From the NCBI RefSeq assembly GCF_020150815.1, contig NZ_CP083723.1, positions 2,294,001 through 2,358,000 of the forward strand: a DNA stretch of 64,000 nt. The letters are read 5' to 3'. Below are positions 28,099-32,215 of this stretch, piece after piece. Each line of letters begins with the position of its first letter. The first letter of the stretch is position 1. Both the position numbers and the translations under genes were made by a program. This DNA comes from Haloprofundus salilacus. GTDB lineage: Archaea; Halobacteriota; Halobacteria; Halobacteriales; Haloferacaceae. Below the pieces are notes generated by a model. That model saw only the letters and a list, made by a program, of their open reading frames with translations. It searched no databases and was not told the origin of the DNA.

Positions 28099-29064
28099 CT
28101 ACGCACCGTACCCGTCGCTGCCGTAGCCACCCTCGCCGTAGAACGTGTCGATGTCGTCGCCTTCGACGACGACGTAGCCGACCGTCTCTGGCTTGTGCCA
28201 CACTTCGTCGTCGCTACTGCGTTCTTCCTCGACGTGAACCTCGACGCTCGTCCGGGTGAGGTTTCGGTAACGGAGCGTGCAGGGTTGGTTCCCCTTGAAC
28301 GTCTCGATGTCCGCGACGACGACGGGGCTCTCGTACGTCCCCTCGAACTCGATGGTCTGCCACTCGTGGTCGACGCCCGTAGCGCGTCCGGCCTCGAACG
28401 GGGCGTCGCCGAGCGTCCCCGTTCCGGGTTCGACGGCGATGTAGCCGACGGACTCGTCGTGGTGCCAGCCGTCGACGCCTTCCTCCTCTTGGAGGCGCGT
28501 CGAAAAGCCCCGCTTGGAGACGCGGCGGTTTCGCGAGACGACGGGATGCCGCCCGTTCGTCGACTGCGGTTGCGTGATGACGACGGGCCGTTCGGCAAAC
28601 CGCTCGTCGAACGAGACGTTCGTCCACGTCGTCCCGGCTTTGGCTTCGCCCGCCTCGATGCGCAGCTCGCCCGCGGTGGACGCGCCGGCCTCCATGACGA
28701 GACTGCCGACCACTTCCTCGATGTGGTTGCCGTCGAGGTAGTCCCACTCCTGGATGCGGTAGTCGAACGAGTCGCCGCCGACGTTCTGTATCCGCGACGT
28801 CGCCGGTTGGTAGCCGTTCTTCGACACGGGGAGCGCGACGACGACGGGGGACGAGTAGGAGCCGTCCAGCGATTGAGTCTCCCACTTGTGCGTCGCCGCG
28901 AGGCGGTGCGCTTCGGCCAGGGGACCGGTGGAGGCAGCACTTACTCGTTTGGAGGCGGCCTGCGTCCCGACGACGCCCAGCACGAGCGAGGCCTGGAGAA
29001 CCCCGCGTCGCGTACAGCGGGTTTCTGAGCGGGCGGATTTCGTCGACTTGTATTGCTTCTGCAT
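28099..29064 (-). CDS. Tat-exported protein with three H-type-lectin-like repeats
   Basis: A 321-residue protein. Residues 19-45 form a Tat signal (T-R-R-G-V-L-Q-A, then a hydrophobic run and A-S-K-R-V-S-A-A-S cleavage region). Three repeats of about 68 residues follow at about 59-127, 147-214 and 233-302. Each has W-x3-x-x-F/L-x-G/E-x-Y/F, P-V-V-V, a central arginine/aromatic strand (S-R-I-Q-N, S-R-N-R-R, L-R-Y-R-N), and ends in H/W-x3-E-x-V-G-Y/S-x-V-x-E. This matches the H-type lectin pattern, which binds sugars in trimers. It lies beside the glycan locus, so a secreted or surface sugar-binding role is likely. The C-terminus is Gly/Tyr-rich. Confidence 0.8.
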   Translation of the reverse strand: MQKQYKSTKSARSETRCTRRGVLQASLVLGVVGTQAASKRVSAASTGPLAEAHRLAATHKWETQSLDGSYSSPVVVALPVSKNGYQPATSRIQNVGGDSFDYRIQEWDYLDGNHIEEVVGSLVMEAGASTAGELRIEAGEAKAGTTWTNVSFDERFAERPVVITQPQSTNGRHPVVSRNRRVSKRGFSTRLQEEEGVDGWHHDESVGYIAVEPGTGTLGDAPFEAGRATGVDHEWQTIEFEGTYESPVVVADIETFKGNQPCTLRYRNLTRTSVEVHVEEERSSDDEVWHKPETVGYVVVEGDDIDTFYGEGGYGSDGYGA

Positions 29065-29681: not shown

Positions 29682-30950
29682 ATGACACGACAGAATCAGA
29701 CCCGAAGGCGGTTTCTCGCAGGGAGCGTAGCGACACTCAGTTCACTGTCATTAGTGGCGAACGGTGCGGGTGCGCAGACGTCGACGCGGACACTCGCCGT
29801 CGTCAACGCGACCGGTAACGGCCCGGCGAAGTACCGGTTCACCGTTGACGGCGACGTCGAGAAGACGACGGAGACGGGCGGTGCGCCGAAGGCGTTCGCC
29901 TCTCGCAACAACGACGACGCCGTTTCCGACACGACCGTCGAGGGTCGCGTCTACGGCGGCGCGGACGCGTACCGAATCTCCGGGTCGGTGACGAGTCTGG
30001 TCGTCGAAGGCGGCGCGGGCATCTACGTCGACGGCGAAGCGGTCGACCCCGGCGACTACTCGGCGCCGAGCGTCCTCGCGATAACCGGTGACGGCGAATA
30101 CGCGTTCTCCACGGACGACACCGTCGAAAAGACGACGCTGACCGGCGGTGCCGACGTTCCGCCCGCCTCGATCAACGCCGCCGACAGCGTCGACGGGACA
30201 GACGTCTTGGGATCGGTGTTCGGCGGAACCGACGCCTACGTCGTCGACGGTGACCTCACCGAGTTCGACCTCGAAGACGGACTTACCGGCTACCTCGACG
30301 GCGAGGAGTACGCGGGTCCGTCGAACGTTCGCGGCGAAACTGAAGGCGACGACGACAGTACGGCGGCCCCCGAACTGGCGTTCCCGGACTGCACTAGCGT
30401 CGAGATTTCCGGCGCGTTCGAGACGGCGTCGCTGGAGGTGCTCGTCGAAGACGACGACCCCGAGACGACGCCGATGGAGCAGGTGTACGAGTACGAGAAC
30501 GACGGCGACGAGACCGACGTGACCGTCTCGGTGCCTGACGACGAGTTCGGCCCGTATCAGGTCCTCGAGTACGTTTCGGTCACCTACGGCGACGGAGAGA
30601 CCGTCGAGGAGACCAACCCCGACGCGAACGAGTGCCGCGAGGAGACGTTCCCCGCCGACCGGAACGTCGAGTTCGTCGACTGTACGTCCGTCAGCGTGAC
30701 CGGCGAGTTCGAGGAGCTCTCCATCGAGGTGCTCGTCCGCGACGACTACCCGACTACGCCGATGGAACAAGTCTACACCGTCAAGAACGAGGACGGGTCC
30801 GCGGAGACCACCGTAAGTGTTCCGGAGGACGAGTTCGGTACGTATCAGGTCGCCGAGCGAGCGACCGTCATCTACCCCGACGGCGAGACCGTCGACGCGA
30901 CCAACCCCGACGCGGAAACGTGTCGCTCGGAGACGTTCCCGAGCGAGTGA
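29682..30950 (+). CDS. Tat-exported tandem-module protein (paralogue A)
   Basis: A 422-residue acidic protein. Residues 8-31 are a Tat signal (R-R-R-F-L-A-G-S, hydrophobic run, A-G-A-Q). Two related modules follow (about 36-122 and 130-211), each with V-E-K-T-T-x-T-G-G-A, a V-x-G-G-x-D-A-Y segment and a closing Y-x-D-G-E. After an acidic linker come two C-terminal modules (232-324 and 329-420) that start C-T-S-V, contain P-M-E-Q-V-Y, and end with N-P-D-A-x-x-C. Each therefore has a cysteine pair (237/318 and 334/414), possibly a disulfide. No known family is recognised. The ATG at 29682 is preferred to the GTG at 29670 because it sits just before the Tat signal. Confidence 0.8.
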   Translation: MTRQNQTRRRFLAGSVATLSSLSLVANGAGAQTSTRTLAVVNATGNGPAKYRFTVDGDVEKTTETGGAPKAFASRNNDDAVSDTTVEGRVYGGADAYRISGSVTSLVVEGGAGIYVDGEAVDPGDYSAPSVLAITGDGEYAFSTDDTVEKTTLTGGADVPPASINAADSVDGTDVLGSVFGGTDAYVVDGDLTEFDLEDGLTGYLDGEEYAGPSNVRGETEGDDDSTAAPELAFPDCTSVEISGAFETASLEVLVEDDDPETTPMEQVYEYENDGDETDVTVSVPDDEFGPYQVLEYVSVTYGDGETVEETNPDANECREETFPADRNVEFVDCTSVSVTGEFEELSIEVLVRDDYPTTPMEQVYTVKNEDGSAETTVSVPEDEFGTYQVAERATVIYPDGETVDATNPDAETCRSETFPSE

Positions 30951-31213
30951 AAGAAAACGAGACCGAGGCGTAACGCGTCGTTTGTCGGTTACAGCCCCGA
31001 GTTGGAGCGGACACTCGAGGACGGCGGGGCGACGGGTTCACGACGTAACGCCGTCGTTACGGCCGCCGCCCCGAACCTAATAGACGATTGACATCCCAGC
31101 ACGACCATTAACGTTCACGAACGAAAAACAGTCGGATAAATACACAAGTACACCTTCCTGAATAAAACTTAAGATGCAACTCAGTGTGGCCTTAGCCGGA
31201 AGTGGAGAAATCA
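30951..31213. promoter_or_regulatory. Promoter region of paralogue B
   Basis: GC drops sharply from 31090. GGATAAATAC near 31134 and AATAAAACTTAAG near 31160 are candidate TATA/BRE elements. GTGGAG at 31202-31207 is a plausible ribosome-binding site 7 nt before the ATG at 31214. Confidence 0.45.
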
Positions 31214-32215
31214 ATGAAGGAAACACATACAAGCCGCCGAACGTTCCTCGCTGGCAGTCTCACGGCCCTCGGCGCGACCGCGACAACGATGACCGTAGGC
31301 GCACAGGAAACTGAGTGGAAACACGTCGTCGTCTCCGGGACGCCGGGTTCCGGACCGGTTCGCTACGAACTGGAGACGACCGAAGCGCTCGAAAAGACGA
31401 CGGAGACGGGCGGCGCACCGGTCGACGGCGCGTCGATAAACGCGAACGACGTCCTCGACGGGAGTTTCGCGAGCGGCGTCGTCGTTGGCGGCGTCGACGC
31501 GTATCGGTACAGTGGCGACCTGACGCTTTTGACCGTCGACGGCGACGCGAACGTCTATCTCGATGGGTCGCAGATCGACCCCGACAGCGTCGGCGAGAGC
31601 CACGACTACCTCGCTATCGTCGGCGACGGCGACGAGACGACCTACGAGTTCGAGGTCGACGGCGACGTGGCGAAGACGAACGTGACAGGCGGGGCGCCGA
31701 AGCGCTACGCCTCGATACAGAGCGGCGACAGCATCGACGACGGGTCGGTCAGCGGGACGGTGTTCGGCGGCGTCGACGCCTTCCGCGTCGCCGGTGACGT
31801 CACCTCGTTCGACCTCTCGGGCGGGACGGCATACCTCAACGGGCAGGAGTACGCCGGGCCGGGCGACGGCGGCCGCGGCGGAACTGGAAGCTCGGACGCC
31901 GACATCGAGTTCACCGGTTGCACGTCCGTCGAAGTGACCGGGGAGTTCGATGAGGTGTCGCTGGAAGTACTCGCCGCCGACGCCGACTGCGAGATGGGCA
32001 CCCGCTACTACGAACAGACGTTCGTCTACGGACTCGCCGACTCCGAGACCATCGAGGGGACGACGACGGTCAGCCTCCCCGACGGCTACTTCGCCGAGTA
32101 CCAGATAGTCGAGTCGGCCATCGCGGAGGGAGACGAGAGCGTCGAGGTGACGAACCCCGATGCCGACGCCTGCCGCGACCGAATGGAGTCGCAGCTCGAA
32201 TCCGCCTGCAACTGA
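31214..32215 (+). CDS. Tat-exported tandem-module protein (paralogue B)
   Basis: A 333-residue paralogue of the gene just upstream. It has a Tat signal at residues 8-31 (S-R-R-T-F-L-A-G-S, ending V-G-A-Q). The two N-modules are at about 36-123 and 131-213, each with E-K-T-T/A-K-T-N, V-T-G-G-A-P or E-T-G-G-A-P, then V-x-G-G-V-D-A-Y/F-R and Y-L-N/D-G. A single C-terminal module (231-320) starts C-T-S-V and ends with N-P-D-A-D-A-C, again with a cysteine pair (236/320) plus Cys259. It differs from paralogue A by having one rather than two C-modules. The ATG at 31214 is chosen because a GGAG lies 7 nt before it. Function unknown; it is probably a surface or secreted protein. Confidence 0.8.
   Translation: MKETHTSRRTFLAGSLTALGATATTMTVGAQETEWKHVVVSGTPGSGPVRYELETTEALEKTTETGGAPVDGASINANDVLDGSFASGVVVGGVDAYRYSGDLTLLTVDGDANVYLDGSQIDPDSVGESHDYLAIVGDGDETTYEFEVDGDVAKTNVTGGAPKRYASIQSGDSIDDGSVSGTVFGGVDAFRVAGDVTSFDLSGGTAYLNGQEYAGPGDGGRGGTGSSDADIEFTGCTSVEVTGEFDEVSLEVLAADADCEMGTRYYEQTFVYGLADSETIEGTTTVSLPDGYFAEYQIVESAIAEGDESVEVTNPDADACRDRMESQLESACN

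Follow-up and report, generated by a model that had tools for sequence, protein, structure and literature searches.

Two adjacent Haloprofundus genes encode predicted Tat-type secreted proteins built from uncatalogued modules that recur across the Halobacteria

Gene pair and module architecture

Two adjacent genes, here called A and B, are arranged head to tail, separated by about 250 bp, in the window, the 64,000-nucleotide stretch of the Haloprofundus salilacus genome that was analyzed. Gene A (29682–30950, + strand) encodes a predicted secreted protein of 422 aa, arranged as a signal peptide, two N-modules (N1, N2) and two C-modules (C1, C2). Gene B (31202–32215, +) encodes a predicted secreted protein of 337 aa with a signal peptide, two N-modules and a single C-module. 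The start codons were assigned to ATG 29682 for A and GTG 31202 for B, with GTG 29670 and ATG 31214 as possible alternatives. Scans for bacterial promoters and terminators at the locus gave results at shuffle level; the models are bacterial, and archaeal promoters are outside their reach.

Tat-type signals are visible by eye in the two sequences (MTRQNQTRRRFLAGS..., ...HTSRRTFLAGS...), as an earlier sequence-only reading of this DNA had reported; its coordinates and reading frames were also confirmed. The signal of A (29682–29777, +) contains TRRRFLAG and ends in GAGA-Q, and that of B (31202–31306, +) contains SRRTFLAG and ends in VGA-Q. Both combine the twin-arginine signal with a hydrophobic stretch and a signal peptidase I-type, A-x-A-Q-like end, and Pfam TAT_signal matched B below threshold (E = 0.044). 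Neither signal has a lipobox cysteine, and none was found among the first 60 residues of A or B. About half of haloarchaeal Tat substrates (46–65%) carry a lipobox (PMC2945643); A and B fall in the lipobox-free half, so release, not lipid anchoring, is expected for them. No PGF-CTERM (a C-terminal PGF motif followed by a hydrophobic tail) and no transmembrane or hydrophobic segment past the signal was found in either protein.

The N-modules lie at 29811–30056 (HMM score 88 bits) and 30084–30320 (70 bits) in A and at 31343–31588 (91 bits) and 31619–31858 (79 bits) in B, all on the + strand. The count of two per protein agrees with the sequence-only reading, which had put their length at about 85 residues; the modules span about 80, and a tandem of two about 185. 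The motif V-x-G-G-x-D-A-Y given for their middle is otherwise kept, with the second N-module of B reading VFGGVDAF. The C-modules of A lie at 30378–30656 (Cys codons at 30390 and 30633) and 30669–30944 (Cys codons at 30681 and 30921), and that of B at 31907–32194, again on the + strand, with the family-invariant cysteines encoded at 31919 and 32171 and an extra pair at 31988 and 32207. These correspond to C237/C318 and C334/C414 in A, and to C242/C326 and C265/C338 in B (numbered from codon 31196). All cysteines of the mature proteins are inside or directly after C-modules, and the second pair is found in B and its relatives. The other pair, already described as conserved from A and B alone, is invariant across 40 diverse copies; its first cysteine sits where the module starts, its second in the region of the C-terminal helix. 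This points to a disulfide that would close the C-module.

The repeats within and between the two proteins were compared with residue-shuffled controls. N-modules aligned with one another at 14.7–26.5 SD over the controls and C-modules at 19.8–40.5 SD. N versus C alignments mostly gave −1.4 to 2.8 SD, with a single pair at 4.5. The two N-modules of B are 44% identical over 70 residues (E = 1e-15). The idea that N and C are divergent copies of one domain was rejected on these shuffle scores and on an hhalign probability of 0.2%.

Confident models were obtained when the structures were predicted with AlphaFold, a check that had been proposed along with the repeats. The model of the N-N tandem of B (80-row alignment) had a pLDDT of 93.7, and the strands of the second copy repeat those of the first in the same order, shifted by about 93 residues; the likeness of the two copies was judged by strand register in the model and not by RMSD. 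The model of the C-module of B (40 rows) had a pLDDT of 92.0 and consists of seven strands and a C-terminal helix.

Conservation and history of the pair

All five Haloprofundus genomes examined retain both genes intact, and Haloprofundus marisrubri has a homologue of B that is 71% identical. Across the five genomes dN was 0.04–0.20 against a dS of 0.28–0.56, for the most part between a quarter and two fifths of dS, which indicates purifying selection. At their highest, these dN values were about double that of the UDP-glucose dehydrogenase gene nearby.

In a tree of the modules, the second N-modules of A and B grouped together (support 99/99), which indicates that an ancestral N-N-C gene was duplicated as a whole. 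The paralogy of A and B is supported. The C-modules of A fall into a single clade (96/94), and by this tree they multiplied after the gene duplication, in line with the modular duplication suspected from the unequal C-module counts. Gene A carries three C-modules in H. marisrubri and in a second genome of the genus (G004) and two in the remaining genomes. The extra copies of G004 cluster together (89/74) and on this grouping probably arose separately. The tree placement of an N-N-C relative from another genome of the same family (G021) is unsure because of long branches.

Absence from family and structure libraries

The N-modules had been noted as belonging to no recognized family, and the searches bore this out for both module types. 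Nothing in A or B scored above the curated cut-off in Pfam or NCBIfam; the match of A to Fn3-II_PB4 reached 15 bits against a cut-off of 27. When 80 N-N tandems were compared with Pfam, the best matches were scattered, namely RodZ_C (E = 3.6e-4, 12 members) and DUF7713 (4.6e-4, 5 members). RodZ_C and Glug matches in other proteins with N-modules were likewise under the cut-off. Among 40 C-modules, the best-supported family was matched in 3 members only (E = 9.4e-4). Sequence profiles of both modules found nothing significant in the PDB; a BNR/Asp-box protein (6er2-4, E = 0.48) and carbonate dehydratase (0.36) were set aside as chance-level matches. At the level of titles and abstracts, no description of either module was found in the literature.

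Fold searches gave a similar picture. Foldseek found no PDB match at E ≤ 0.001 for the N-N or the C-module model, and no match for the N-N model among viral models at the same threshold, which leaves an origin from a virus or provirus unsupported. Cellulose-binding CBM2 domains appeared in the N-N search at noise level (E 0.33–0.52, probability 0.2). The N query comprised two domains, which lowers query-normalized TM-scores; target-normalized scores of the listed PDB matches were at most 0.29. The best fold matches of the C-module were CsgH/CsgC- and FnIII-like sandwiches at E ≥ 0.01. Judged from the predicted models, a new fold is possible.

The N- and C-modules are uncatalogued, and A and B belong to an accessory-module family that is widespread in haloarchaea and has no name. 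They represent ordinary biology and not a new kind of system, although the family merits an entry of its own.

Distribution and hosts of the N-module

The HMM search suggested by the sequence-only reading found both modules widely, and neither is peculiar to the pair. The N-module was present in 84 of 116 Halobacteria genomes (E ≤ 1e-4), roughly three quarters, and commonly in several copies. Among 197 sampled genomes of the phylum, 22 had a match, all from the same order. The HMM detected 190 domains in 73 ORFs in a first set of loci and later 349 in 133; no reversed-sequence decoy scored below E = 0.05.

A typical host of the N-module has an RR signal, an N-terminal part of 300–530 aa and one to seven tandem N-modules at the very C-terminus, and host signal peptides are mostly of the RR type. 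Among 51 host proteins searched at E ≤ 1e-4, domains were assigned to Beta_helix (11), GH16 (2), polysaccharide deacetylase (1), GH26 (1) and S8 (1), the subtilase protease carrying the GH26 domain in the same chain. The N-modules are behind the right-handed beta-helix or GH16 domain, and ahead of the deacetylase domain or, in the subtilase, the GH26 domain. Hosts with PPC domains were also seen, and in over half of the hosts no catalytic domain was recognized. For two hosts with no Pfam match (L087 and L114), no PDB relative was found either. Three hosts other than A and B carry PGF-CTERM anchors.

Four genes of the H. salilacus genome itself carry nine N-modules in all: besides A and B, these encode a GH16 protein and a 448-codon ORF with two N-modules and no known domain. 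The GH16 protein is endoglucanase-like and is encoded 9 kb before the window (L038:6596–8368, −); it has an RR signal and three C-terminal N-modules. Other arrangements were seen elsewhere. Three adjoining paralogues (L048:4143–9126, −) have one N-module each, PPC domains in at least two of them and a PGF-CTERM tail, and by their sequences are surface-anchored N-module proteins. A giant protein of more than 2900 aa (L131:3195–11999, −) combines four malectin domains, several PKD domains and three N-modules. At the other extreme, small proteins of 107–161 codons from another haloarchaeal family (L117–L124, e.g. L123:461–880, −, and L119:487–810, +) consist of little beyond one shortened N-module and have no obvious signal peptide. 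They fall into two subtypes, LTIIGQGTP... and VTIVGRGVP....

Distribution of the C-module and its partnership with the N-module

A widened profile detected the C-module in 68 of 292 Halobacteria genomes. Almost all of these are outside the family of the window's genome, and most belong to one other family. Small proteins carry the module alone; elsewhere it is paired, follows an unknown domain of about 400 aa or appears once per chain in large proteins. Single C-modules in proteins of 1300–1570 aa (L141:2186–6907, −; L142:235–4701, +) are found in many genomes of one family (f7). One such large protein checked by Pfam contains DUF7282 and CARDB.

N- and C-modules in one chain were seen in Haloprofundus A and B and in the single N-N-C gene of G021. 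A second family has an N-N-C protein with a further 350 aa (G290) and an N-C-N-C protein (G148), and a third has an N...C protein with marginal scores (G260). Because such chains recur across families, the combination probably predates the A/B pair, judging from sequence comparison.

Gene neighbourhood

All five Haloprofundus genomes share the right flank, with HpcH aldolase and formate-dehydrogenase-like genes. The left flank, with genes for an H-lectin-like protein, UDP-glucose dehydrogenase and a nucleotidyltransferase, is constant in four of the five. The lectin-like gene (28099–29064, −) encodes a secreted protein that seems to contain internal repeats and matches H-type lectins below threshold (E = 2.7e-4); it is on the opposite strand from A and about 600 bp away. 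It was not found anywhere in the G004 genome, which retains A and B, and the link to the lectin is therefore dispensable. In G004, A is flanked by genes for a flippase, a DUF2206 membrane protein and a GT2. The N-N-C gene of G021 neighbours Pus10, EamA and FAD-oxidoreductase genes, with no glycan genes near.

The sequence-only reading had suggested that A and B may be a surface-display or adhesion system, given the lectin-like protein and the glycan locus beside them. The conserved left flank, the UDP-glucose dehydrogenase and nucleotidyltransferase genes adjoining the lectin-like gene and the other glycan genes beside A in G004 would fit such a system. The proposal nevertheless fared poorly and is improbable: neither A nor B has an anchor, the lectin-like gene is separate in strand and missing from G004, and the setting of the G021 relative is unrelated. 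A looser link of A and B to glycan loci within the genus is possible.

Glycan binding and alternative roles

The favoured explanation, held with somewhat less than even confidence, is that A and B are secreted, non-catalytic, putatively glycan-binding proteins. They would be exported folded via Tat, the usual route in haloarchaea. The N-N tandem would bind an extracellular or cell-surface polysaccharide, as suggested by the polysaccharide-active hosts, and the tandem copies may raise avidity by analogy with carbohydrate-binding modules. A and B would then coat or cross-link that glycan as enzyme-free variants, with the C-modules as robust disulfide-closed spacers or as a second contact surface. 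The basis for this reading is that polysaccharide-active and beta-helix proteins carry the N-module, among them the GH16 protein of this genome; the mostly RR-type host signals and the conservation of both genes also fit it. Against it are the lack of a confident fold match, and the varied hosts and short signal-less N-module proteins, which fit a structural module equally.

That alternative, in which the N-module is a ligand-free unit for spacing, stability or protein–protein docking that builds up in secreted haloarchaeal proteins, and A and B are structural proteins of the cell envelope or matrix composed solely of such units, is nearly as likely. The hosts are very varied, down to subtilase and PPC proteins, many have no catalytic domain, some are small proteins without a signal peptide, and the C-module also appears in the large secreted DUF7282/CARDB proteins. 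However, a structural unit leaves the association with polysaccharide-active hosts unexplained. The near-invariant positions of the N-module (Y13, D41, D57, Y59 and G63, model numbering) could mark a conserved site, which would count against a purely structural unit, or could be structural instead. A and B could also derive from a modular enzyme whose catalytic domain was lost, and persist without a specific role, given that N-modules elsewhere normally follow a domain of 300–500 aa. This is very unlikely, since purifying selection acts on both genes in five genomes, A gained C-modules later and N-N-C proteins exist in other genera and families, all of which suggests that the architecture is maintained.

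Glycan binding by A and B can be extended to a broader claim, that the N-module is an unrecognized carbohydrate-binding module of unsolved fold found throughout the class Halobacteria and that A and B are enzyme-free matrix or surface glycan binders with a new disulfide-closed partner module. This broader claim is doubtful, and the label "carbohydrate-binding module" is premature. Like the carbohydrate-binding modules of secreted CAZymes, the N-module is a small, all-beta accessory domain that occurs in tandem copies. It is a non-catalytic domain joined to carbohydrate-active enzymes, being found with GH16, GH26, deacetylase and beta-helix proteins of the Tat secretome, although not exclusively. 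Unlike them, it matches no carbohydrate-binding module family by sequence and none confidently by fold, and it is also carried by a subtilase. If the N-module were named, the tails of many secreted haloarchaeal enzymes would be annotated together, and A and B offer small natural N-N-C constructs with which to probe it.

The neighbouring PF09458-like protein shares with A and B its position as an adjoining secreted beta protein, but has no sequence relation to either module. The C-module is, like the Ig/FnIII-like accessory domains (PF24170, Fn3-II_PB4; CsgC/CsgH), predicted to be all-beta. It matches Fn3-II_PB4 weakly (E = 0.03 for A, 9.4e-4 for the best member), as it does CsgH/FnIII structures, but these matches are under the curated cut-off or at E > 0.01, and the C-module has its own invariant cysteine pair. 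The large DUF7282/CARDB proteins have one C-module, as B does, but differ from A and B in their length, in having no N-module and in their other domains.
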